A stretch of 64,000 bases of DNA. Source: Paenibacillus sp. JNUCC-31. Its GTDB lineage: Bacteria; Bacillota; Bacilli; Paenibacillales; Paenibacillaceae. Shown one piece after another: positions 43,082 to 59,627 of this stretch (positions are counted from its first letter, which is position 1; each line of letters starts with the position of its first letter). The translations under genes and the position numbers were made by a program. The stretch spans positions 6,572,001 to 6,636,000 of the forward strand of contig NZ_CP062165.1 in the NCBI RefSeq assembly GCF_014844075.1, given 5' to 3'. The notes beneath the pieces are model-generated. The model was not told the origin of the DNA. It ran no database searches and worked only from the letters and a program-made list of their open reading frames with translations.

Positions 43082-44668
43082 ATGAAAGAGGATTCAAGAC
43101 AACTGGAATTTATGGAGATAGATTTAAGTGAGGAGCCAGAGACAGCTGCTGTTCCCGTTCCTGATCGTTCAACGATTGTCCGTGTTGATCTCAATCCAAC
43201 ATTGTCAGGCGGCATATTGTCTTCGGAGAGACGATTTGTGGAGGAGGCGAGGCAGCTCGCAGAGGTGGAGGGGGAGGAAGCTCCATGGGTTCCTTTCATG
43301 AGTTATTGGCCGACCTATGGTGTTATGAATGCACCCCAACGCAAGTGGTATATGTATTGGAGGACCGAAGTGCGGCAAGGGCGATTCCCGGATACGGATC
43401 TCTCCTATCTGTTTGTTCACATTTATGAGCTGATTAACGGAATTGGTTGGCAGGAGCCCCAATCTGGTTATGATCAATTAAAAGAACTGTGGATCAACTA
43501 CCGTGAACGCCTTCTGCAACTGGATGTGTATATGCAGGAGTGGATCATTGATTATGGACTGGTACACAAGCTGAATATGTCCATTTCCGAGATGGTGGAC
43601 CTCACTAGCGGATATCTGCCCATGGAGGTTCTGGATATGGAGTTGCAACGGCTGCTGAACAATCATATATCGGACATCTCGCTGAAACTGCTACAACGAT
43701 ACTACGATTACGACATAACACTCAGCAAATTTTACAGGGATGGCGGCAAAGAAGTGCTGGAAAAGTACATTCCGCGAGTGATGTCTTTGGTCGATTCTTA
43801 TCTTCTGCGCACACGCGAGGCGGGGATATTAGATCAGTTTGAACTACTGAATAAGGAACGGACCATGGAACGCATGCTGTTTTGCAAAGCTGTATATGAC
43901 GACTCCATATATGGTAAATCGGTTCAGCTTACATACGTGCCGATTGGAGAGCATGCCGATTTTGTTCAGTTCGTAACCCGCATATTTCGATGTACCGAAA
44001 ATAAATGTCGTGAACTGCTCGGTTTCAGAGGGCGACTTCGCGGAAAGACCCTTGAACCTGAGCTTGCAAATGTGATTGAACGTTACTTGGACAAAGCCTT
44101 TGCAGCCGAACACGTGCCAGCGGTAGAGCAACCGTTGATCCAAATTGATACAGAGAAACTTGCATCGTTGCAGCAGGAAAGCGAGTATGTACGGAGAGCG
44201 CTCATGATTGAGGAAGATCCGGTTTGCGAAGATGGGAATAGGGGAGCGACGTTGTTAATCCCGAATTCAGTTCACGAAACGGATGATGTAAAAGAAATAC
44301 AACAAGATACGAAGGCGTGCACCCAGCAGGAGCCGTGCGTTGAAGTCCACATTAGCACTTCCGAAGGACAAGCGGGCACGGAGCCATTGACTCTGCAATG
44401 GGAGGCAGCCTCTTCTGCTGATCTGGATGAAGAATGGGCACATTTCTCAGGGATGCTCTCTCCTCAGCATGTACAGGCCATCCATGCCCTGCTTGGCGAT
44501 AATCCGGATACGGAGCTAATGCGAGTTGCTGAGCGTTATGGCACGATGCCTGCACTTCTGCTGGATGAAATAAATGATGTGGCTATGGAAACGATTGGTG
44601 ATCTGCTGGTAGAAGGGGATCGCCTGGTTTCGGAATATATGAATGTGTTTGAACAAGTGAAGAGGTGA
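43082..44668 (+). CDS. TerB_N / TerB_C domain protein
   Basis: A 528-residue protein. Residues about 60-280 form a TerB_N domain, with its aromatic opening WVPFMSYWPTYGVMNAPQRKWYMYWR (shown here only in part: WVPFMSYWPTYG). Residues about 440-525 form TerB_C, with LLGDNPDTEL, LLLDEINDVAMETIGD and a final helix. A low-complexity stretch (about 350-430) links them. The central TerB helical domain itself is not obvious. The family occurs in ter-type stress and phage-related gene clusters. It is the first gene of a tight operon with an ATPase and a helicase (7 nt gap). The start site is weak (AAGGATGGTG, 12 nt away). Confidence 0.85.
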   Translation: MKEDSRQLEFMEIDLSEEPETAAVPVPDRSTIVRVDLNPTLSGGILSSERRFVEEARQLAEVEGEEAPWVPFMSYWPTYGVMNAPQRKWYMYWRTEVRQGRFPDTDLSYLFVHIYELINGIGWQEPQSGYDQLKELWINYRERLLQLDVYMQEWIIDYGLVHKLNMSISEMVDLTSGYLPMEVLDMELQRLLNNHISDISLKLLQRYYDYDITLSKFYRDGGKEVLEKYIPRVMSLVDSYLLRTREAGILDQFELLNKERTMERMLFCKAVYDDSIYGKSVQLTYVPIGEHADFVQFVTRIFRCTENKCRELLGFRGRLRGKTLEPELANVIERYLDKAFAAEHVPAVEQPLIQIDTEKLASLQQESEYVRRALMIEEDPVCEDGNRGATLLIPNSVHETDDVKEIQQDTKACTQQEPCVEVHISTSEGQAGTEPLTLQWEAASSADLDEEWAHFSGMLSPQHVQAIHALLGDNPDTELMRVAERYGTMPALLLDEINDVAMETIGDLLVEGDRLVSEYMNVFEQVKR

Positions 44669-44675
44669 TAGGATA

Positions 44676-46019
44676 GTGACAGAATTCAAAATACCGAAGC
44701 GGCTGACTACTGCGCTGGTAAATTCGTTGACAGCGGGTGTTGTACCACGAATCGGACTGGAGCAGATCGCTGTTGGCCGGAAGGCTGAAGTCGACGCAAT
44801 CTTGCGGGACATGGATAACATTGCAGAAGGGGGAGCGGCCTTTAAGCTGATTACAGGAAGATATGGCAGCGGCAAAAGCTTTCTTTTACAGATGATTCGC
44901 AACTATGCGATGGATCGGGAATTCGTTGTGGCGGATGCCGATTTGTCACCGGAGCGCAGACTCGTGGGAACCAAGGGTCAGGGGCTAGCAACATACCGTG
45001 AGCTGATGATTCGTCTGTCTACTCGTACACGTCCGGATGGCGGCGCGCTGGAACCGATTTTGCAGAAATGGATCGCCAGTCTTCAGCAACAAGTGATGCA
45101 GAGCCAAGGCTTGAGCCCGGATGATCCTGCACTTCCCGCTGAAGTGGAGAAGCAGATCTATGCCGTAACGAATGAAATGCAGAATCTGGTTCATGGTTTC
45201 GATTTTGCCAAGGTGCTGGCTTCGTACTGGAACGGGTATAAATTGGCGGATGATGACCGCAAACAGGCAGCGCTGCGATGGTTGAGAGGTGAATTCGCCA
45301 CCAAGACGGAAGCGAAGAAAGAGCTGGCTGTCGGCGTCATCATTGACGATGATAACTGGTATGACTACTTCAAATTATGGTCCGAATTTACGGCACGGAT
45401 CGGTTATAAGGGACTGCTGCTGTTTATCGATGAAGCAGTGAATCTATATAAAATTACAAACAGCATTTCTCGGCAAAGCAACTACGAGAAGCTGCTCACC
45501 ATGTTCAATGATACGATGCAGGGAAAAGCAGAACACCTTGGCATTTTTGTAGGTGGCACACCGCAATTTGTGGAAGATGAGAGACGAGGGTTGTTCAGTT
45601 ACGAAGCACTCCGCTCCAGACTCATTGATGGCCGCTATGCAGCAAGAGCATATGCGAATTATACCGGACCGATCCTGAAACTTTCGATGTTGTCCCATGA
45701 AGAGATTCTGATTCTCTTGCAGAAGCTGCGCCAGATTCATGCCATGCATTTTGGATACAGTGCAACTCTGACAGATGAAGATTTAGTTGATTTTATGCAA
45801 ACCGCGGTAAACCGACTCGGTGCGGATGAGTTACTGACCACACGGGAAGTGGTACGGGATTTCATGGATGTGCTCCATACGCTCCACCAGAATCCCGAAG
45901 TGACCTATGCCCAATTGCTTGGTGAACGGGCATTGAAACCGCAGGAAACAGGAAAAGCAACTGATTCTTCATCCTCTTCCGATGATCTGGACGATTTTCT
46001 GGCGGAGTTCGACTTATGA
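44676..46019 (+). CDS. BrxC/BrxD-like ATP-binding protein (DUF2791 P-loop)
   Basis: A 447-residue AAA+-like ATPase of the DUF2791 (BREX ATP-binding) family. The opening PKRLTTALVNSLTAGVVPR is characteristic. Walker A is GRYGSGKSF (near 61-69) and Walker B LLLFIDEAVNL (near 246-256). A sensor-like VGGTPQFVEDERRG follows (near 290-303), and DELLTTREVVRDFMDVL is near the C terminus. The GTG start at 44676 has AGGTGATAGG upstream, partly inside the terB-type gene. It overlaps the helicase gene by 4 nt (ATGA). Size and pairing with an Lhr-like helicase match BrxD of type 2 BREX, but pglX, pglZ and the other BREX genes are absent. Confidence 0.88.
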   Translation: MTEFKIPKRLTTALVNSLTAGVVPRIGLEQIAVGRKAEVDAILRDMDNIAEGGAAFKLITGRYGSGKSFLLQMIRNYAMDREFVVADADLSPERRLVGTKGQGLATYRELMIRLSTRTRPDGGALEPILQKWIASLQQQVMQSQGLSPDDPALPAEVEKQIYAVTNEMQNLVHGFDFAKVLASYWNGYKLADDDRKQAALRWLRGEFATKTEAKKELAVGVIIDDDNWYDYFKLWSEFTARIGYKGLLLFIDEAVNLYKITNSISRQSNYEKLLTMFNDTMQGKAEHLGIFVGGTPQFVEDERRGLFSYEALRSRLIDGRYAARAYANYTGPILKLSMLSHEEILILLQKLRQIHAMHFGYSATLTDEDLVDFMQTAVNRLGADELLTTREVVRDFMDVLHTLHQNPEVTYAQLLGERALKPQETGKATDSSSSSDDLDDFLAEFDL

Positions 46020-48229
46020 GTGAGAATCCTTTCTATCGGCTTGCACCTTTTGTCCAGGAATTTATTTATAAAAAAAGGTGGGAGTCTCTCCGGCCCGCCC
46101 AGATTGAGGCCTGTAATATTTGCTTTCATACTCCGCATCATATGCTGATTGCCGCAGGAACTGCTTCCGGCAAAACGGAGGCGGCTTTTTTTCCTGCACT
46201 GACCGAGCTGTACGAACGACCCTCCAAATCTGTAGGCATTCTGTACATTGGGCCGCTTAAGGCATTGATTAATGACCAATTCGAGCGACTAAAGGATTTG
46301 TTGTCAGAGGGGAACATTCCAGTATGGCACTGGCATGGGGATGTGCCCCAGGCAGAGAAAACCCGTCTCATGCGACATCCATCCGGTGTGCTTCAGATTA
46401 CGCCTGAATCGCTGGAAGGTCTGTTAATGAATCGCCCCAATGCAATTCCGGCTCTGTTTCATGATCTGCGATATGTCATTATTGACGAAGTACATGCATT
46501 CATGGGGGCAGATCGTGGCATTCAGGTGTTAAGTGAGCTCGCGCGAATGGAGCGTATGGCTGGATGTAAACCGCGAAGAGTGGGGTTATCTGCGACACTG
46601 AGTGATTATGATACAGCTACAGCCTGGCTCGCTGCCGGAACTCACCAGGGGGTGGATGTGGTTTCTTCCCCTGGTGGTCGCAAGCTGCGTCTGCGGGTGG
46701 AGCATTTTTCGTTTCCGGATGCACGGGATGAAGAACAGGCCGAACATCTGCATAACGCACGTAAAGTTTATTACGACTTCATTTATGAGAGTACCTATCG
46801 CAAGAAAGCTTTGATTTTTACAAACAGCCGGACGGATGCCGAAGTCACCATCCTGGAGATGCGCCGTGTCGCTGCACGCAGACAGGAGCGAGATGTCTTT
46901 CATGTGCATCATGGCAGTATCTCCGCCATGCTGCGAGAAGAGACGGAAGCCGCTTTGCGGACGGGATCAGGTCCAGCCGTAGCTGCGGCTACCGTAACGT
47001 TGGAACTCGGTATCGACCTGGGTGAATTGGAGCGGGTTGTGCAGCTTGGAGCCCCTTATAGTGCATCGAGCTTTGTGCAGCGTCTTGGACGATCAGGCAG
47101 GCGTGAGGATATGGCTTCCGAGATGCTATTTGTATGTCCGGAGGAAGAGGATGAAGAGGCTCAGCTCCCTGCGCGCATGCCCTGGACACTACTGCGTGCC
47201 ATTGCTGTTATTGAATTGTATCTAAAGACCAAGTGGGTTGAGCCGCTGGAAGCCCGCCAAATGCCAATGGGTGTACTCTATCATCAAACCATGAGCATGC
47301 TGAAAAGCATGGGGGAAGCTGAACCGAAGGAACTGGCGGAAGCCATTCTATCGCTGGCACCCTTTGCCCAGATTCGATCAGATCAATATGAGGTCTTCCT
47401 GAACTATCTGATTGAGACAGATCATCTGCAATGGACCGAGGATCGGACATTAATTATTGGGCTTACGGGTGAGAAAACCGTTAATAACTATCGCTTTTAC
47501 GCAGTGTTCAAAGATGATGAAGAGCATAAAGTGCTGAACGGTTCCGAAGAGATTGGATCGATTACAACCGTGCCGCCACCTGGCTACTGTTTCTCCCTTG
47601 CCGGAAAACTGTGGAAAGTGGAAGAGGTGGACCATAAGCACAAATCGGTGTACGTAAAGTCTGCCAAAGGCAAAGTCGACACGTTATGGCTCGGTGCTGG
47701 TGGTGATATCCACACAGCCGTTGTACAGAAAATGCGTGAAGTACTGTCAGACACGGTGATATATCCTTATCTGTCTCCGCAAGCGGTGAATCGTCTGGAG
47801 CGTGCTCGACGTCTTGCACGGGAGAGCGGCCTGCTGAAGCAGGTCGTCATTCCTGCGGGTGGAGATTCCTTATACGTGCTGCCATGGGTGGGAAGCAAGT
47901 CTTTCCGAACACTGGAGCGACTAATGAAGCATAATTTATCTGACAAGCTGGCCTTGCGTTCTGTGGTGCCCATGGAGCCCTATTATTTTGTGGTGTCTGG
48001 CAAAGTGGATGGCCGCACACTTTTGGCCGAAATCATGAGTGAGTGTCGGACGGTCGAAGACGCATCTGCGTTACTTGCTGAAGATGAAGCACCGTATCTT
48101 GGCAAATATGATGAATTCATAGCCCCGGTCCTGATTCGTGAAGCTTTTGCAGTGGATGGATTGGATCTACATGGTCTTAGAGAAGGATTACAACAAACGT
48201 TGGCCTGGGAGTCTACAGCGACGAAATAA
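46016..48229 (+). CDS. Lhr/BrxHI-like DEAD/DEAH-box helicase
   Basis: A 737-residue SF2 helicase. Motif I GTASGKTEA (near 47-55), motif II IIDEVHAF (DEVH, near 155-162), motif III GLSATLSD (near 192-199), motif IV ALIFTNSRTDAEV, motif V ATVTLELGIDLGELERVVQ (core TLELGIDLG) and motif VI QRLGRSGRR (near 362-370) are all intact. The C-terminal 330 residues are an Lhr-type accessory region. ATG 46016 overlaps the ATPase stop in ATGA. It is the last gene of the operon, and nothing resembling a nuclease or methylase follows. Confidence 0.93.
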   Translation: MSENPFYRLAPFVQEFIYKKRWESLRPAQIEACNICFHTPHHMLIAAGTASGKTEAAFFPALTELYERPSKSVGILYIGPLKALINDQFERLKDLLSEGNIPVWHWHGDVPQAEKTRLMRHPSGVLQITPESLEGLLMNRPNAIPALFHDLRYVIIDEVHAFMGADRGIQVLSELARMERMAGCKPRRVGLSATLSDYDTATAWLAAGTHQGVDVVSSPGGRKLRLRVEHFSFPDARDEEQAEHLHNARKVYYDFIYESTYRKKALIFTNSRTDAEVTILEMRRVAARRQERDVFHVHHGSISAMLREETEAALRTGSGPAVAAATVTLELGIDLGELERVVQLGAPYSASSFVQRLGRSGRREDMASEMLFVCPEEEDEEAQLPARMPWTLLRAIAVIELYLKTKWVEPLEARQMPMGVLYHQTMSMLKSMGEAEPKELAEAILSLAPFAQIRSDQYEVFLNYLIETDHLQWTEDRTLIIGLTGEKTVNNYRFYAVFKDDEEHKVLNGSEEIGSITTVPPPGYCFSLAGKLWKVEEVDHKHKSVYVKSAKGKVDTLWLGAGGDIHTAVVQKMREVLSDTVIYPYLSPQAVNRLERARRLARESGLLKQVVIPAGGDSLYVLPWVGSKSFRTLERLMKHNLSDKLALRSVVPMEPYYFVVSGKVDGRTLLAEIMSECRTVEDASALLAEDEAPYLGKYDEFIAPVLIREAFAVDGLDLHGLREGLQQTLAWESTATK

Positions 48230-48291: not shown

Positions 48292-48320
48292 TTGACACCA
48301 CCTCACCTGCCATGTAATAT
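48292..48320 (+). promoter_or_regulatory. Sigma-A promoter of the riboswitch-controlled DMT gene
   Basis: TTGACA (48292-48297), a 17-nt spacer and TAATAT (48315-48320), preceded by TG. Transcription from about 48327 would give a leader of nearly 240 nt. Confidence 0.75.
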
Positions 48321-48362: not shown

Positions 48363-48442
48363 CATTTCGTATAACCTCGCAGGCCGAAAGTGTACACAGG
48401 GCGAGGGTCTCTACGGGAAGCCTATACTTCCTAACTACGATG
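48363..48442 (+). ncRNA. Purine-riboswitch-like aptamer with atypical loops
   Basis: Three-way junction: P1 is TCGTA (48367-48371) with TACGA (48436-48440). P2 is CCTCGC (48375-48380) with GCGAGG (48401-48406). J2/3 is GTCTCTAC (48407-48414, the conserved TNTCTAC). P3 is GGAAG (48416-48420) with CTTCC (48427-48431). J3/1 is AAC followed by TA. The Watson-Crick ligand position (C74 equivalent) is C at 48435, as in guanine rather than adenine switches. Unusual points: the P2 loop is 20 nt instead of 7 and the P3 loop is 6 nt (CCTATA) without the canonical CCGTAAA. AGGC (48381-48384) could kiss GCCT (48420-48423), at the cost of one P3 pair. Confidence 0.75.
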
Positions 48443-48485
48443 CCAGGGAATCATTGTATTCCTTGCTCGTAGTTAGGATTTTTTG
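48430..48485 (+). terminator. Regulated terminator overlapping the aptamer
   Basis: CCTAACTACGA (48430-48440) pairs perfectly with TCGTAGTTAGG (48467-48477), with an inner GGGAAT/ATTCC stem, followed by ATTTTTTG. Its 5' arm is the P1 and P3 3' strand of the aptamer, so aptamer folding and termination exclude each other. Ligand binding should therefore turn the gene on. Confidence 0.85.
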
Positions 48486-48563
48486 CATTTGGATGGTGTC
48501 TGTGACCTTGGCATGGATCAAACATGCGGACGCATTTTTCGATCATCAGGAGGTTTATTTACA

Positions 48564-49517
48564 ATGAAATATTATCTGTCTGTTCTCGCAGGAGCGATGA
48601 GCTATGGCATCTTATCCACAATTGTGGTTCTGGCTTACGGCGAAGGGTACAAACTTGGAGAGGTTGTGGGCACACAGCTGATCACGGGCTTCATCCTGTC
48701 CTGGATGCTGGCATTATACACGAAGTTTAGAATGAAACGGAATTCACAGGCAGATGGAAAACCATCAGCAGCTGTGGCAAAAGCATTCCAGAAATTAACA
48801 TGGAAGCAGCGTTTGATGTTGATGGCTGCAGGGACGCCGACCGTGATTACCGGTCTCGTCTATTACCAGTCTTTGCGGTACATTCCCGCGTCGCTGGCCA
48901 TTATTCTTTTGTTCCAGTTTACGTGGATTAGTGTATTGATTCAGGCCGTTAGCAAACGTCAGCGTCCTGACAAAGTAACCTTCCTGACATTGATTATTCT
49001 GTTTGGCGGTACTTTGCTGGCAGCAGGTTTCCTAGAACAGGGGCTTGGCGAGTTTAATGGTCTGGGCATTGCACTTGGACTGATGGCTGCTGTAAGTTAC
49101 TCGCTGTTTGTACTGTTTAGCGGCAAAGCGGTTCCAACCGCACATCCGGCATTTCGCAGTGCTTGGATGGTTACAGGAGGTCTGGTCCTGCTATGCATCC
49201 TGTTCCCGCCGACGTTCTTGTTTAACGGCTTAATCTGGAGCCAGCTGCTTGTGTTCGGATTACTGCTCGGATTCTTCGGAGCATTTATCCCGCCGGTTTT
49301 GTTCGCTGTAGGTGTCCCTCATATTGGAGGCGACATGGCCGGAATTCTTGGTGCAGTTGAACTTCCGATTGCGGTGTTGCTCTCGTCCATTGTGCTTCAC
49401 GAGCATGTCAGTGCATTGCAGTGGATCGGGGTTATCGTGGTGCTGATTGGTGTAGCGCTGCCAGAGATCTACAAGTTGCGGATGAGAAGAAGCCGAAATA
49501 CACCTCTATATTCCTGA
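48564..49517 (+). CDS. DMT/EamA-family exporter
   Basis: A 317-residue membrane protein with ten predicted helices in two EamA repeats (second repeat begins near residue 165). The C-terminal half ends with GGDMAGILGAVELPIAVLLSSIVLHEHVS in outline, the usual EamA helix 9-10 pattern. AGGAGG (48548-48553) sits 10 nt before ATG 48564; the longer frame from 48483 starts inside the terminator and is rejected. EamA proteins are mostly exporters of metabolites. The ON-type purine-like switch upstream resembles the logic of the Bacillus PbuE purine efflux gene. Confidence 0.9.
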   Translation: MKYYLSVLAGAMSYGILSTIVVLAYGEGYKLGEVVGTQLITGFILSWMLALYTKFRMKRNSQADGKPSAAVAKAFQKLTWKQRLMLMAAGTPTVITGLVYYQSLRYIPASLAIILLFQFTWISVLIQAVSKRQRPDKVTFLTLIILFGGTLLAAGFLEQGLGEFNGLGIALGLMAAVSYSLFVLFSGKAVPTAHPAFRSAWMVTGGLVLLCILFPPTFLFNGLIWSQLLVFGLLLGFFGAFIPPVLFAVGVPHIGGDMAGILGAVELPIAVLLSSIVLHEHVSALQWIGVIVVLIGVALPEIYKLRMRRSRNTPLYS

Positions 49518-52020: not shown

Positions 52021-52116
52021 ATGACACTTGTTAGGGGAGGCACCCCAACAGAGGACTTTGTTCCTTTGTTGGGGTGCCTCCTTTTTTGGTGTGCAGAAAA
52101 GGAGAGCAGACGTTGA
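52021..52116 (+). CDS. Possible 31-codon leader ORF across the attenuator hairpin
   Basis: ATG 52021 lies about 3 nt from the predicted transcription start, with no Shine-Dalgarno, and the frame runs through the whole hairpin to TGA 52114-52116. That TGA overlaps the TTG (52113-52115) of the giant gene. If translated it could melt the hairpin and couple translation. It is a structural observation only; the peptide resembles nothing known. Confidence 0.3.
   Translation: MTLVRGGTPTEDFVPLLGCLLFWCAEKESRR
52036..52088 (+). terminator. Leader terminator/attenuator before the giant surface gene
   Basis: GGAGGCACCCCAACA (52036-52050) pairs perfectly with TGTTGGGGTGCCTCC (52067-52081), followed by TTTTTT. 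It sits between the promoter at 51983-52011 and the gene start at 52113, so transcripts must pass it. Confidence 0.8.
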
Positions 52117-55100
52117 AGAAATCCCGAAAATTGGTGAAAAAACAAGCCGAGCAACTGACCAAAGTAGTGCTGGCTTTTGCCTTGCTTTCACCTCAAGCAC
52201 TGATCGCTGAATGGGGAGCAACCGCCGTTATGGCTGAAGCTGTGGAAAGCATCAGTATTGTATCCGATACCTACAGCATGAAGGCTGTTCAATCCTCCAA
52301 AGTGAAGGTGGAGATGAACAGTGATGGCAAATACAGAATTGTATTGCTTCCCAATACCAACGTATTTTACGGCGGAGATACCGGAAATGTATCCACCATT
52401 ATTGATCACAACGGAACCCCCATTAACTTTAAGTCATTGCCGCTCAATTATTATCGAATCAACAACAACGTCATTGAAATGTCCCGGCAAAAGGACAATG
52501 TCGAGTATATTTTGCGAGTATCCATCGTCAACGCCACGTCTCAAGGCGGTTATATGAAAGTGGAGCTGGAGGCTGTTAATCGCAGCGGCTCGACGCTCAA
52601 TCTGGGAGGCACGTTCTACTGGGATACCATGGTGAATGGCAATGATGCTTCACCATTTGAAGTGATTGAGAACGGCTGGCGCAATTATAGCGGCGGTGTG
52701 CAGGTAACTGCTTTTTATGCCAACACGTATAATGTCGTGGACGCAGATCGTATTTTCATGGGGCAATATAACAGCCCGGATAATGCCCAACTTACAGGCG
52801 GTTCTACCCCATCTTCCTTTGTGCCAGGGCAGACCGTAACGGCGAGTGATACTGCTGCACAATTTTGGTGGAATGGCAAAGCAACCGCAAACCAGGTTTC
52901 CCGGAAATTTTCTACGATTGTTGGCATTGGTCCGAAAAATGCACCGCCCTCATTTACACTATCAGCTCCTTCTTCGGGCCAGACCTATTATAAAGGGGAG
53001 CAGCTGCAAATTTCCGGTACAACCCGGGACACGGATGTGGGAGATCTGTTGACTGTAAAATGGTCGATTGACGGTGGGGCGGAAAACATCCTGACACAGA
53101 TGACGGCCACAGGTGTGAATCAGTCATTTAACACAAATTATACGTTACCAGACACTCTCGCCGATGGTACACATACGTTACAGGTATGGGTGATGGATGA
53201 CAAAGGGGGAGTGTCTTCAGCCGGAACTATCCATTTCACGGTGAGAAGTTTCGTTGTTCCAGGAACGCCGACGTTTGCAGCGGTGAACAGCAATAATATG
53301 ACGGTGAACTGGGATAAGAAGGCGAATGACGCTTCCGTGACGTATGAATTGAAAAATGTAACGACCAATCAAAGTTTCGATACGGGTACCTCAAACAGTC
53401 GCCAGTTGACTGGACTTACACCGAATACGCAGTATTCCTTTGCGGTCCGGGCCAAAAATGCAGTCGGTTCCTACACGGGATATTCAAGTTCTGCGGCCAA
53501 ATATACACTGGCAAACTCGCCCGCTGATGCAGCAGTCACACAGTCTGGTAACTCCGTCACGGCCAGTTGGAACAACAATGGTAATCCCGCTGGAACCAAC
53601 TACAAAACCGAGATACGAAAATCTGGTGGACAAGTACTCGCATCGGGTACAACCTCCTCGACACGTACCGAATTGGCTATAACTGGGCTCGCCGACGGAG
53701 TGTATGAAGTGTATGTAGCAGCACTAAATGGCGAAGGCATACAGACACCATTCATATCTGCTGGTCAGATCACAAAGGACACAACAGGCCCGACTGCTCC
53801 CTCTATATCCGTCAATCCATCTACTTGGACCAAGGAAGAGGTGTCAGTTACCATAACAGCAGGTTCGGATGCCTTGAGTGGGGTGCAGAAGACACAGTAC
53901 AAACTGGGGATAGGGGGAGAATGGAAGGAATACAGCGTACCAGTCACAGTTGCTTCTGAAGGAAACACACTCATTTTTGCACGCAGCATAGATACATTTG
54001 GCAATACAGGACAAGAAGCTTCTGTTACGGCACGGGTAGACCGGACTGCTCCAACGCCTCCCATGATCTCATTGAATCCACCGGCATGGACCCATTCGAA
54101 TGTCACAGTGACATTAACGGCAGGTACAGACGAAGCCAGCGGCGTTGGTCTTACACAGTACAGGCTTGGTGAAGAAGGAACGTGGATCAATTACCAGGAA
54201 CCGTTTATCTTGAATGCAGAAGGAGTAACTGAAATTCAGGCGCGGAGTGTGGATCGAGCCTCGAATGTCAGTGGGTCAACTTCAGCTACTGCACGTATAG
54301 ACAGGACAGGACCCGAGGAGCCAAAGATTACGCTCAGTGACGATGACTGGACGAATCAGGATGTGTCTTTTGAAATAATCAGCGGTGAAGATACAGGGAG
54401 TGGACTTTCCAAAAGCCAATATCGACTAAATGAGCAAGGTCCCTGGATCGATTACACGGGCGAAGTGAAGGTTACCGACGAAGGACAAACCGCCGTATAT
54501 GCTCGCTCACTAGATCGGGTAGGGAATATAAGTACCGTAGCAAAAGCAATCATTCGGATCGACAAGACTGCTCCAACAGAGCCGGTCATTACATTAAGCC
54601 AATCCGGCTGGAGTAAGGAAGACGTGCAATTTACGATTGCCGGAAGTGTAGATGAACATGCCATATCATATGAGTATAGTTTAAACGGAGATCCATATAT
54701 TACAGGGAACTCGGGTACTGTGAGCATAAACGGAGCTACAGTCATTCGGGCCAGAGCGAGGGATGCCGTAGGTAATGTTGGCACAGAGATCAGTCGTACG
54801 GCTTACGTCGATCAGATTGCTCCAACGATTACATTTACACCGAATGGACAGGGTTGGACCGATACCGATATATCCGCCATGATTCAATATGAAGATGCTG
54901 ACTCAGGCATCCATGAACTGAAACGATTCTATCAAATAACGGGCGGCATTGCTCCACCAGAGAACTGGACTGAAGCCGAGTCCAATAAGCCCGTAATTCC
55001 AATCGATTCGGAAGGCATCTGGTATATTCATGCCAAAGCAACCGATGAGGCAGGCAATACATATGAAACCGTATCTTCACCTTATCAGATTCAGCGAAAA

Positions 55101-58100
55101 CCAGAACAACCAGCGAATGTGAGCATCACACAGATCAATGAAACTTCAGCAGAACTTACATGGGACCTGCCGACAGGTAAGTGGCACACCGATGGATACC
55201 AATATGAAGTGATGAACAAAACAACAGGACAGTCGTGGACAATGGATTATCCGAACCACACGTTAATAGATAGTTCTCTGAATGGAGGGCAAGTCTATGA
55301 ATTTGAGGTCAGAGCCAGAAACCACACGGGTTTAAGTGATTCAGTAACGATCCGTGCATTAACGGTTCCTGCGGCGCCGGGATCATTGCAAATTCGTAAA
55401 GTGGAATCTCAGCCAGATCTAGCAGAAGTACATTTCGATTCCGTTCAAGGCGCTACGGCATATCGGATCATGGCTTCAACTACAGACGGAAGAACGGTAT
55501 ATGATGAGACCATATCCGACTCTTCCCGCATGCCTTACATTAGCAATCTGGTCCCTGGGACAATTCATACCATCTCGGTTACTGCTTTGAATGAAAGTGG
55601 TGCGGGAGGGAGAAGCCGGACGGGATTCTTGACTTTGCCTGCAGCACCAGGGCAATTTGCGGCAGTGCAGATTCGGGAGCATGAGATCTCTCTGGCATGG
55701 GATACGGTAACTTCAGCCACATATTACAGTCTTTCGCGTAATGGGACAGGGGTCTTCGATGGATTGGAAACCGCGTACGTAGATGCAGGTCTGGATAGTG
55801 GTACAGAGTACAGCTATGAATTGCTCGCTGCGAATGAAACAGGAGAAGGGCCCCCGGCAGACTTGCAAAAATGGATGACCTTGCCCGGTGTTATTGAAAA
55901 CTTGACCGTGGATGAGCCTACAACAACGAGCTTGCGTCTAAGTTGGGAGCCTGTAAGAGGTGCTGAGCAATATGAGGTCTATGTGGATGGAGAGAAGAGG
56001 CAGACGCTGCCCACCGGAACCCATGAATGGGTCGTTACGGGATTGGCTGCAGGTACAATGCAACAGTTGGAAGTGCGGGCGGTCAATGGGAGTGGAGAAG
56101 GTCAATCGAATCGGGTAGCTGGAACGACCCTTCCCGAGAGTCCTTCGGGGCTTCACTTTGTTCAACCGACCGAGACAGGAGCTATACTTAAATGGGATGA
56201 AGTCCCCGGGGGCACCCATTATCGGGTGACTCTTGATGGACAGAGCTATGAAATATCAGATACACAGCTTATCGTCGATCAATTATCAGGCAGTCGTCGC
56301 TATACGTATCAAGTGGAGGCTGGAAATGCTGCCGGGTATGGTGCGGCCACAAGTAGCGAACTGCTCACTTTACCAACCAGACCTGAAGGAATGGCAGTAA
56401 CGCGTATCGATGAAACAAGCATGGGCATGGAGTGGGGATCGGTAAAGACAGCCGAGTCCTATATTGTGAGAATCAATGGAACTGAGGTTGGTCGAACTTC
56501 TCAACTTGCCTATACGGCTGTAGATTTATTGCCAGGGCTGGAATATGTGTTGGAGGTACAGGCCGTGAATGCCTCGGGAACAGGTCAATCGGCAAGTTTG
56601 ATCCAATTATCCAAACCAACGCCGCCTTCAGAAATCGTTGTTGAACCTAAAGTACATAAAGCAACCTTGTCTTGGGACGCTGTTGAAGGTGCATCGGAGT
56701 ATTTAATTTACCAGAATAATAAGGAGATCTATCGTGGTACGCAACCGACGGCGCTGATTACTGGGCTTCAGGATGGAACGAGGTACGACTATACTCTTCG
56801 GGCGGTAAATAGACAAGGGACCCAATCCGAAGCGACGAATGTCTCCGTGCTGACCTTGCCTAAGAAACCAGTTAAAGTTCAGGCATATGATGTGTCAGAA
56901 AACAGCCTTAGTCTGGATTTCACCAAAACAGATGTAAAAGGGGCAGACGAATATATCATTGAACGCAATGGGCGTGAGATCGCTCGTTTGAATGCTAGTG
57001 AAGGCCGCTTCGTGGACAAGGACTTGTCTTCGGGCACGAAATATACTTATATGATCCGGGCGGTCAATGCAAGTGGCTCAGGCGAATCCTTAACCTATGG
57101 GGTAATGACCCAAACACGGCCAATACCCGCAGATGGGATTAGTGTTATTAAGGGAACACATGCGTTTGATCTGGCCTGGGAAGCAGTTCAGGGAGCCACT
57201 GCATATGAAATTCACAATCAGACCACGGGAGATGTGCAGACGGTAACCGAACCTTCGGCTCATCTCGCGAGTCTGCTGGATGGCACAATGTATGAGTATG
57301 AACTCACGGTAATGAATGAGGATGGTCACCGTTCCACTCCAGTGCAGGTTCATTTACTGACCAAGCCTATATCCTCACAAACTGTAAGCATTGAGGCGGT
57401 AACGGATAAATCGGCAACACTTGATCTGAGTGGCAGCGCCACACGAGGAGCGGATCAATTGATCCTTTTGCGGGATGGGAATGAAATTGACCGTATTCCG
57501 GCTGACAGGATTTCTTATGAAGACAAGGACCTGACGCCGGGAGAGAAGTACACCTATACGGTCAAGACTTCTAATGCCTCCGGTGAAAGCGATGCGGGCT
57601 TTGAGGTTCAATTACGTACGCTACCCGCAACAGTGACTGAACTGCTGCATCCAGATGGGATTGAAGAGACGGAGGCAGTGATTACATGGGAGAAGGTTCA
57701 AGGGGCCGATGGTTACATTGTAAGGATAGCGGATGACGAATTTACTACAATTACAGAGAGTGAACTGACTGAGATCAGACTTACAGGGCTTGCCAGCGCA
57801 GCCCCATATGATATGGTGCAGATCATTCCTTATAATACGGCGGGTCAGGGAAGCCCTATTAAAGTCACGCCATTTTTCACATTGCCTCATGTTGATTCTG
57901 TTGAGATGAAGCTGTATCCCGAAACAAATCATGCCAGACTGGAGTGGGCTTTCCCTTATCCCAATGAGACGTTTGTAGTTATGATGGAGGGCATGGAGCT
58001 ATACCGCGGCAAACAAAAAGAGTATATCGCGGATGAGCTGGAGGGTGGAACGAATTACTCCATTGAACTGTATACCGAGAACGTGCAGGGAGATATATCT

Positions 58101-59627
58101 CATAAGCTTGAATATACGTTATTAACCAAACCGGAGGCACCAAAGGAAGTGGAATATCATTCCACACAAGATAGCATTCAACTTCAGTTTGGAAAGAGCC
58201 AAGTCAAGGGGGCCGAACAGTTCATCATTGAACGTAACGGAGTGGTGATCAGCAGAGTATCGGTGGACGAACCTTTTTATAAGGATCAGGGGCTCGAACC
58301 TGGAGTCCATTATGAGTACACCATTAAAACAGGGAATGCTTCCGGTATGAGCGAGAATGGTTTGAAGCTTAACGCAGTTACGCTGCCCGGTACGATTTCC
58401 TCCTCTCCTATGGTCGAAGAACGAGCTGCACATGGAGCAGATATACTATGGGATATGGCTCCAGGTGCAACGGGCTACCGGATCTACCGGCAAGCCGAGC
58501 TGATTGCAACAATAACAGAAACGTCCATGCATATTGCGGCATTGAAAAGTGCTCAGCGCTATCCTGACTTTTCCATCGTGCCTTTTAATGAGGCGGGAGA
58601 CGGAGAGGTAATCCTTGTACCTGAGTTTGAGACACTGCCGTCGAATGAAGTCATTGTTTCAGCGGTGGCCCAAGGTACAAGCAGTATTGTAGTGAGCTGG
58701 AAGCTGGAATCTTCGAATGAAACGGTTGTTCTTTCCCATAATGAACGTGAAATTTATCGTGGCAAAAATCGAAGCTACATCTGGACTGGATTAACGGGTG
58801 GACAGCGCTATGATCTGATGCTGTGGACTGAAAATTCTGCTGGGGAAAAAAGTGAAAGTCAACAGGCTTCGGCTGTTACTATGCCGTATCCACCTGCGAG
58901 TGGAGGAGCTAGCCCAGCAACGCCTTCCTCCAAACCGGAAACTGAACAGGCAGAAGTGACCCAACCTGATTGGGATGGCAAACCTGATACAGCAACCAAG
59001 AAACAGGTCAAATTTTTGGATATTGGTCAAACCTTTAATAAAGATCAGATTATCTGGCTGGCAGAACAGAATATTATTCAGGGTGTGAGTGAGACCCGTT
59101 TCGAACCGCGACGTCCCATTACACGAGCAGAGTTCACAGCACTTATTGTCCGATTAATGGGTGTGGACACATCTGTTGGTTACCAGCATGCTTTTCAGGA
59201 TGTGAACGATCAGGATTGGTTTGCTCCAGAGATTGGGGCTGCGGTAAGTCGTGGAATGGTACATGGTATGGGTAATGGCAAATTTGCCCCTTATGCGCTC
59301 GTGACCCGGGAACAGGCGTCGAAGATCATTGCGAATGTTATTCGTAAAATCAAGCCGGAGCCTATGACATCACGTCGTGCGTTTACCGATCAGATGGATG
59401 TGTCCGATTGGGCCAAAGAAGAGGTGGAAGAGCTTGCTGGAATGTATATGCTAACCGGATACGAAGACGGCAGTTTCCGTCCCATGCAGCATTTGAGCAG
59501 ATCCGAGGCGGCGGCCCTGATCTTCCGTTTGAACAAACTGATTCGTATTATAGAAGAAAACCAAACGATGGAGGGAAATCAAACGAGTAAAGAGACTAAC
59601 ACACCAAAATGGGACAGGACGATTTAG
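52113..59627 (+). CDS. Giant secreted FN3/Ig repeat protein with SLH anchor
   Basis: A 2504-residue surface protein. In order: a long signal peptide (about 1-44), an N-terminal beta domain (about 45-285), an Ig-like domain (290-380), two FN3 domains (about 385-550), five Ig-like repeats of the OmpL47-type (each opening D(K/R)TAPTEP-like and ending ARSxDxxGN, about 555-990), some 14 FN3 domains (about 995-2260), a short linker, three SLH domains (about 2296-2482) and a polar tail. No catalytic domain was recognised, so adhesion or scaffolding is the likely role. The TTG at 52113 follows AAAAGGAGAG; the frame extends up to 52074 but that would lie inside the terminator. Confidence 0.9.
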   Translation: MKKSRKLVKKQAEQLTKVVLAFALLSPQALIAEWGATAVMAEAVESISIVSDTYSMKAVQSSKVKVEMNSDGKYRIVLLPNTNVFYGGDTGNVSTIIDHNGTPINFKSLPLNYYRINNNVIEMSRQKDNVEYILRVSIVNATSQGGYMKVELEAVNRSGSTLNLGGTFYWDTMVNGNDASPFEVIENGWRNYSGGVQVTAFYANTYNVVDADRIFMGQYNSPDNAQLTGGSTPSSFVPGQTVTASDTAAQFWWNGKATANQVSRKFSTIVGIGPKNAPPSFTLSAPSSGQTYYKGEQLQISGTTRDTDVGDLLTVKWSIDGGAENILTQMTATGVNQSFNTNYTLPDTLADGTHTLQVWVMDDKGGVSSAGTIHFTVRSFVVPGTPTFAAVNSNNMTVNWDKKANDASVTYELKNVTTNQSFDTGTSNSRQLTGLTPNTQYSFAVRAKNAVGSYTGYSSSAAKYTLANSPADAAVTQSGNSVTASWNNNGNPAGTNYKTEIRKSGGQVLASGTTSSTRTELAITGLADGVYEVYVAALNGEGIQTPFISAGQITKDTTGPTAPSISVNPSTWTKEEVSVTITAGSDALSGVQKTQYKLGIGGEWKEYSVPVTVASEGNTLIFARSIDTFGNTGQEASVTARVDRTAPTPPMISLNPPAWTHSNVTVTLTAGTDEASGVGLTQYRLGEEGTWINYQEPFILNAEGVTEIQARSVDRASNVSGSTSATARIDRTGPEEPKITLSDDDWTNQDVSFEIISGEDTGSGLSKSQYRLNEQGPWIDYTGEVKVTDEGQTAVYARSLDRVGNISTVAKAIIRIDKTAPTEPVITLSQSGWSKEDVQFTIAGSVDEHAISYEYSLNGDPYITGNSGTVSINGATVIRARARDAVGNVGTEISRTAYVDQIAPTITFTPNGQGWTDTDISAMIQYEDADSGIHELKRFYQITGGIAPPENWTEAESNKPVIPIDSEGIWYIHAKATDEAGNTYETVSSPYQIQRKPEQPANVSITQINETSAELTWDLPTGKWHTDGYQYEVMNKTTGQSWTMDYPNHTLIDSSLNGGQVYEFEVRARNHTGLSDSVTIRALTVPAAPGSLQIRKVESQPDLAEVHFDSVQGATAYRIMASTTDGRTVYDETISDSSRMPYISNLVPGTIHTISVTALNESGAGGRSRTGFLTLPAAPGQFAAVQIREHEISLAWDTVTSATYYSLSRNGTGVFDGLETAYVDAGLDSGTEYSYELLAANETGEGPPADLQKWMTLPGVIENLTVDEPTTTSLRLSWEPVRGAEQYEVYVDGEKRQTLPTGTHEWVVTGLAAGTMQQLEVRAVNGSGEGQSNRVAGTTLPESPSGLHFVQPTETGAILKWDEVPGGTHYRVTLDGQSYEISDTQLIVDQLSGSRRYTYQVEAGNAAGYGAATSSELLTLPTRPEGMAVTRIDETSMGMEWGSVKTAESYIVRINGTEVGRTSQLAYTAVDLLPGLEYVLEVQAVNASGTGQSASLIQLSKPTPPSEIVVEPKVHKATLSWDAVEGASEYLIYQNNKEIYRGTQPTALITGLQDGTRYDYTLRAVNRQGTQSEATNVSVLTLPKKPVKVQAYDVSENSLSLDFTKTDVKGADEYIIERNGREIARLNASEGRFVDKDLSSGTKYTYMIRAVNASGSGESLTYGVMTQTRPIPADGISVIKGTHAFDLAWEAVQGATAYEIHNQTTGDVQTVTEPSAHLASLLDGTMYEYELTVMNEDGHRSTPVQVHLLTKPISSQTVSIEAVTDKSATLDLSGSATRGADQLILLRDGNEIDRIPADRISYEDKDLTPGEKYTYTVKTSNASGESDAGFEVQLRTLPATVTELLHPDGIEETEAVITWEKVQGADGYIVRIADDEFTTITESELTEIRLTGLASAAPYDMVQIIPYNTAGQGSPIKVTPFFTLPHVDSVEMKLYPETNHARLEWAFPYPNETFVVMMEGMELYRGKQKEYIADELEGGTNYSIELYTENVQGDISHKLEYTLLTKPEAPKEVEYHSTQDSIQLQFGKSQVKGAEQFIIERNGVVISRVSVDEPFYKDQGLEPGVHYEYTIKTGNASGMSENGLKLNAVTLPGTISSSPMVEERAAHGADILWDMAPGATGYRIYRQAELIATITETSMHIAALKSAQRYPDFSIVPFNEAGDGEVILVPEFETLPSNEVIVSAVAQGTSSIVVSWKLESSNETVVLSHNEREIYRGKNRSYIWTGLTGGQRYDLMLWTENSAGEKSESQQASAVTMPYPPASGGASPATPSSKPETEQAEVTQPDWDGKPDTATKKQVKFLDIGQTFNKDQIIWLAEQNIIQGVSETRFEPRRPITRAEFTALIVRLMGVDTSVGYQHAFQDVNDQDWFAPEIGAAVSRGMVHGMGNGKFAPYALVTREQASKIIANVIRKIKPEPMTSRRAFTDQMDVSDWAKEEVEELAGMYMLTGYEDGSFRPMQHLSRSEAAALIFRLNKLIRIIEENQTMEGNQTSKETNTPKWDRTI

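Follow-up and report, generated by a model that had tools for sequence, protein, structure and literature searches.

A purine aptamer with an extended J3/1 junction, probably a guanine-type ON switch, precedes an EamA-family exporter gene in Paenibacillus and its relatives

The window, which is the whole 64,000-nucleotide stretch of Paenibacillus sp. JNUCC-31 DNA that was analysed, contains a gene for an EamA-family (DMT) exporter of 317 amino acids at 48564-49517 on the plus strand (PF00892, 72.5 bits; cut-off 28.2), and in the leader of this gene lies a purine-type aptamer whose end, at 48440, is 123 nt from the gene start. The only NCBIfam model listed for the exporter, TIGR00950, is far under its cut-off, and no related solved structure was matched by sequence. 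Directly upstream of the leader (window 43082-48229) three genes match SngA, SngB and SngC of the Shango defence system (PADLOC; E 6e-106, 1e-207 and 6e-245), and at window 52074-59627 there is an open reading frame of 2517 amino acids in which many fibronectin-III-like repeats and a surface-layer-like end are seen by eye. The same genome has three further purine aptamers above the RF00167 cut-off (L001-L003; L and G numbers are handles for loci and genomes), each with a 2-nt J3/1. From their translations, the genes behind these are presumably purE-purK (L001), xpt and a xanthine-type permease (L002), and a purine permease (L003). The features of the exporter leader are as follows.

48292-48320, plus strand: possible promoter (TTGACA, 17 nt, TAATAT), weak (one found against a shuffle mean of 1.0)
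48367-48371, plus strand: P1 5′ strand, 5 bp, pairing with 48436-48440
48372-48374, plus strand: J1/2, UAA; U22 is 48372, and the first base is U in 84/84 distinct leaders
48375-48380, plus strand: P2 5′ strand, 6 bp, pairing with 48401-48406; two pairs are changed on both sides
48381-48400, plus strand: L2, 20 nt, its 3′ end AGG (48398-48400) opposite the CCU of L3
48407-48414, plus strand: J2/3, GUCUCUAC
48415-48420, plus strand: P3 5′ strand, 6 bp, pairing with 48427-48432
48421-48426, plus strand: L3, CCUAUA (DNA CCTATA), of which CCU kisses L2
48433-48435, plus strand: J3/1, AAC; C74, the ligand-pairing position, is 48435; 1 nt longer than in ordinary guanine aptamers
48430-48440, plus strand: terminator 5′ arm, common to P3, J3/1 and P1 of the aptamer
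48467-48477, plus strand: terminator 3′ arm, followed by A and T6 (48479-48484)
48548-48553, plus strand: ribosome-binding site AGGAGG, by eye, about 110 nt 3′ of the aptamer

The aptamer (window 48367-48440, plus strand; core strands GTATAA, GTCTCTAC and AACTACGA) is matched by RF00167 at 36.8 bits over all 102 model positions (E 1.6e-4 in a scan of 351 bases). The curated cut-off of that model is 37, so the window copy is 0.2 bits short of it, and at curated cut-offs no Rfam family was matched in the 64-kb window. In 20 exporter leaders of relatives the same model found 19, 17 of them above the cut-off and two below; the unmatched one (L164) reached 29.9 bits in another scan. A match to sRNA154 in the leader is due to chance (12.7 bits, cut-off 88). 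The fold energy of the aptamer alone is ordinary (z -0.27), and the evidence for it is therefore homology and covariation.

The loops were compared in an alignment of 91 leaders, 84 of them distinct (L261-L266 and within-genus repeats were left out). Although L2 ranges from 6 to 36 nt, GG stands at its end or one base earlier, and CC opens L3, in all 84 distinct leaders. The pair adjoining GG:CC varies in a largely compensated way (A-U 74, C-G 7, U-A 1, U.G 1, U.U 1), and a third kissing pair can form in 83 of the 84; 20,000 shuffles, which ignore relatedness, averaged 67.1 and never went above 75. The GG opposite CC in every leader, together with the covarying neighbour, argues that the L2-L3 kiss is kept, and on alignment evidence it seems to be three pairs long. 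Short forms, such as the L2 AGATGG and L3 CCATA of L057, resemble ordinary kissing loops; in alignment A1 L057 was misplaced by MAFFT, hence no change is visible in the kissing helix there. P2 and P3 also covary, with compensated changes among the exporter leaders. Four of the five P1 pairs never vary, so that P1 is neither backed nor contradicted by covariation. The junction core columns hold constant in several of the order's families, against a background of drift in the terminator loop and L2. Comparison of the leaders thus establishes, at the level of sequence, both the aptamer fold and the kissing contact. A conserved extra hairpin in L2 was considered and rejected: 33 of the 59 distinct L2 sequences of at least 17 nt fold below zero, 13 at p <= 0.05, and that of the window is without a fold. 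With a hairpin limited to some lineages, the L2 insert looks like a variable spacer.

The first-pass annotation of this DNA had been right on the sequence of a purine-aptamer core with C at the ligand-pairing position (48435), an L2 of 20 nt and an L3 of CCTATA, but its claim that the loops that normally kiss had been replaced was wrong. Its expectation of covariation among homologous leaders was borne out for P2, P3 and the kiss, with P1 pointing neither way.

What does set these aptamers apart lies beside the ligand-pairing base. J3/1 is 3 nt in 84/84 distinct exporter leaders; as parsed, 43 of the 50 purine aptamers used for comparison have 2 nt (of the seven exceptions L195, L200, L205 and L209 are parser errors, a 2-nt reading also works for L253 and L258, and L254 is truly 3 nt). 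The Rfam alignment of the window aptamer makes P3 short by one 5′ position and keeps an unpaired A on its 3′ side. The first P3 pair in the 84 leaders is A-U in 47, G.U in 26, G-C in two and open in nine (U.U 6, G.A 2, A.C 1); whether it is counted or not, C74 lies one nt further from the inner 5-bp P3 than in the ordinary aptamers compared. The distinguishing trait of the exporter-linked aptamers is, as far as their sequences tell, a short P2 and P3 with one extra J3/1 nucleotide. Of the altered loops earlier put forward as the variant trait, the enlarged L2 holds, but a J3/1 longer by one nucleotide and a P2 of 6 bp had been missed. The pocket bases are constant: U22, U51 and C74 are present in 84/84 leaders. 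J2/3 starts GU in all 84, its U being U47, which we take to be a ligand contact; it is 8 nt long in 82 and 7 nt in two (L151, L166), and the base 3′ of U47 (n=84) is U in 56, C in 23, as in the window, and A in three.

The aptamer 3′ strand is also half of a terminator (48430-48477, plus strand), with a perfect 11-bp stem formed by CCTAACTACGA (48430-48440) and TCGTAGTTAGG (48467-48477). The terminator part alone is more stable than chance (z -6.97; as stable in 0/200 shuffles), and the window leader as a whole folds in the terminator form at -44.5 kcal/mol (z -4.4). Since that form is favoured at equilibrium, the switch must act during transcription; the window fold offers no obvious separate antiterminator. 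The terminator rule, with the aptamer 3′ strand as 5′ arm, was passed by 61 of the 73 leaders folded, and the other 12 have a complementary arm with an interrupted T-run, by which comparison the shared strand is established. Among 44 distinct arm pairs, the terminator 3′ arm is complementary to the extra J3/1 base in 41 (A:T 27, T:A 12, C:G 1, T:G 1, mismatch 3) and to R73 in 42 (A:T 26, G:C 14, G:T 2, mismatch 2), counts which include six rows with a wrongly placed 3′ arm (L140, L149, L153, L164, L167, L171). Five of these leaders (L140, L149, L164, L167 and L171) have a shorter terminator arm, GCUACG or GCUGCG, with its complement. Such covariation of the terminator 3′ arm with J3/1 is, by sequence, the design of a ligand-ON switch, as a P1 stabilised by ligand would exclude the terminator. 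The perfect 11-bp terminator on the aptamer 3′ strand, and the ON-switch architecture before an exporter gene deduced from it, had both been noted earlier and are upheld by these measures.

At E <= 1e-30 the exporter protein has a match in 119 of 149 relatives, and upstream DNA was taken at 70 of these matches (30 + 40 loci, minus-strand contigs being reverse-complemented). In a sample of 75 genomes of the genus the leader precedes all 50 exporter orthologues of at least 69% identity, in two of which (G059, G060) the exporter gene is in two pieces; in the remaining 25 an exporter is absent or only 39-46% identical, and the best match to R1, a covariance model of 21 distinct exporter leaders, is 43.6 bits. 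Fifteen EamA homologues at a greater distance (42-53% identity; L059-L061, L063-L074) had no leader match in their upstream DNA. Within the order, R1 at 58.1 bits or above has at least 149 matches in at least 148 of 392 genomes. Outside the genus there are 101 among those listed, and in all 81 examined (L052-L055, L057, L106-L174, L176, L261-L266) the exporter is downstream, which with the 50 of the genus makes 131/131 and establishes the exporter link by comparison; in L143 only a 60-residue exporter piece remains, beside an IstA-like transposase gene that interrupts it. Behind weaker R1 matches the exporter was found in 0 of 37, made up of 0/10 (L175, L177-L185), 0/19 (L216-L235 minus L232, which has no R1 match) and 0/8 (L253-L260). 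The score gap is partly built in, R1 having been trained on exporter leaders, but the gene link is not. A 398-genome draw of the class gave six matches outside the order at E <= 1e-9, the best at 55.2 bits. Searched for in named genomes, an exact 46-base stretch turned up in 17 records, all of them Paenibacillus (including P. pabuli, amylolyticus, taichungensis, xylanexedens, tundrae, polysaccharolyticus, xylanivorans and one filed as polymyxa). The distinct variant group that had been surmised is supported.

Genomes of the genus sample that lack the exporter leader (it is in 50 of the 75) include 14 with an MFS pump that shares 93-100% identity with the L179 pump and lies directly behind an R1 match of 32.9-36.2 bits. 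We take the L179 pump to be a PbuE homologue; NCBIfam models match it only under their cut-offs. The three of these 14 leaders examined (L179, L180, L185) have U74. The exporter leader and the adenine-type MFS-pump leader occur together in 0/75 genomes, where Fisher p = 8e-9 overstates the exclusion as both traits follow the species tree; one may have been swapped for the other within the genus.

Other purine RNAs of the relatives were given class labels by match to the wording of the available part of PMC9295807. L232, with G51 and before an allantoinase above the TIGR03178 cut-off, would fit xanthine-II, and L227 and L233, with U51 and before phosphoribosyltransferase-like genes, would fit guanine-II. 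L216 and L217 are guanine-II-like RNAs with U51 before Rieske-domain oxygenase-like genes. L221, with J2/3 GCUCUAC, precedes an 8-oxoguanine deaminase above its NCBIfam cut-off. Purine aptamers with an ON-type terminator stand before an FAD-dependent protein in L229, L231, L175, L255-L257 and L259; in L229 and L231 the last base of J2/3 is G, not C, and PF21688 is the FAD-dependent protein domain in L175 and L177. Outside the order, the purine aptamer L254 has what by eye is an ON-type terminator, and the gene behind it encodes a xanthine dehydrogenase Fe-S subunit. A 3-nt J3/1 as an exporter-only mark was rejected, as it is also found in L175, L229 and L231, before FAD-dependent proteins, and in L254.

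Taken together, the leader is probably a purine riboswitch of the guanine type by which the exporter is switched on. U22, U51 and C74 are named as guanine contacts in the available part of PMC9295807, and as they are unchanged here guanine is the likeliest ligand. When purine is scarce, the aptamer 3′ strand (the end of P3, J3/1 and P1) would fold into the terminator, and transcription would end before the gene. Abundant guanine, or a close purine, would instead pair with C74 in the three-way junction and lock P1 and the L2-L3 kiss, so that the terminator could not form; the EamA pump would then be made, presumably expelling excess purine or a purine-like compound. This is what we infer for the ligand, the ON direction in the cell and the substrate of the pump.

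Against this reading count the extra J3/1 base beside the ligand-pairing C and the window copy falling just under the cut-off. J3/1 insertions accompany changed selectivity in guanine-II and xanthine-II, according to the available part of PMC9295807, and the insertion makes a changed ligand possible. With a changed ligand, the exporter leaders would form an aptamer class of their own on the purine scaffold, whose J3/1 insertion and short P2 and P3 reshape the pocket for a non-guanine purine, perhaps toxic or damaged, that the EamA pump exports. The 3-nt J3/1 throughout (against 2 nt in most of the comparison aptamers as parsed), the constant tie to one exporter, and the other ligands sensed by related variants with junction changes (same part of PMC9295807) speak for it, but every named contact base is that of guanine, guanine-II is described there as still binding guanine with larger insertions, and the 3-nt J3/1 of L254 (xanthine dehydrogenase subunit) and of L175, L229 and L231 (FAD-dependent proteins) fits a common purine equally; we hold it to be rather unlikely. 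Much less likely is a guanine aptamer that acts as an OFF switch or on translation, for though guanine-I riboswitches are mostly OFF (PMC9295807, available part), the aptamer 3′ strand is the terminator 5′ arm in 61/73 leaders, the other 12 show the arm with its interrupted T-run, and the window fold has no evident antiterminator and a Shine-Dalgarno sequence about 110 nt 3′ of the aptamer. Decay or a chance match kept by neutral descent, to which the near-cut-off score, the ordinary fold energy and the close relatedness of the window's clade (where identity means little) might lend colour, is scarcely credible and was dismissed on terminator stability, core columns invariant across families while terminator loop and L2 drift, and compensated changes in P2, P3 and the kiss.

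A literature search, mostly without subscription papers and without supplements, turned up no paper in which a purine riboswitch precedes an EamA/DMT gene, though an earlier listing of these RNAs is possible. The probable guanine-type ON switch described here adds a further purine-aptamer layout in Paenibacillaceae to guanine-I, guanine-II, xanthine-II, the 8-oxoguanine variant and the adenine type, and gives an otherwise uncharacterised exporter a testable purine-related role. As a natural experiment it also bears on how much L2, P2/P3 and J3/1 may change with the pocket bases constant.

The Bacillus subtilis adenine (pbuE-type) riboswitch is an ON switch before an exporter, with its aptamer 3′ strand as the terminator, and in all this the exporter leaders resemble it; the adenine label fails as adenine types have U74 (L179, L180, L185, L199, L207) and the exporter leaders C74 in 84/84. 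The 8-oxoguanine variant, on what we take to be its details, shares C74 and the ON layout, and its aptamer ends CCUAACUACGA in L221. There, however, J2/3 is one nt shorter (GCUCUAC) and the gene is for 8-oxoguanine deaminase, not the EamA exporter found here in 131/131, although a 7-nt J2/3 is also seen in the exporter leaders L151 and L166. That purine-riboswitch variant is mentioned in the available part of PMC9295807. The ykkC subtype 2d RNA is likewise associated with EamA transporters (PMC7266159, available part) but is another scaffold, and the leader has no such Rfam match. Xanthine-II (PMC9295807, available part) shares the purine scaffold, the J3/1 insertion and occurrence in Paenibacillaceae, but has G51 (L232: GUUUCGACCA) against U51 in 84/84 exporter leaders. 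Guanine-II likewise has U51, an ON architecture, a J3/1 insertion and occurrence in Paenibacillus; with a one-nt insertion in J2/3 and a long one in J3/1, it still binds guanine (same source). The presumed guanine-II RNAs L216, L227 and L233, however, have J3/1 CCAGGC and P3 GGCAA/UUGCC, and their genes are phosphoribosyltransferase-like or encode Rieske-domain proteins; the label does not suit the exporter leaders, with a J3/1 of 3 nt, not CCAGGC, and a J2/3 of 8 nt in 82/84 and 7 nt in two (counted one nt longer where the first P3 pair is taken as open). From guanine-I (RF00167) the exporter leaders differ in a J3/1 of 3 nt rather than 2, a 6-bp P2, a mostly larger and variable L2, the ON layout and the EamA gene, but with it they share the three-way junction, U22, U51, C74 and the kissing GG:CC.
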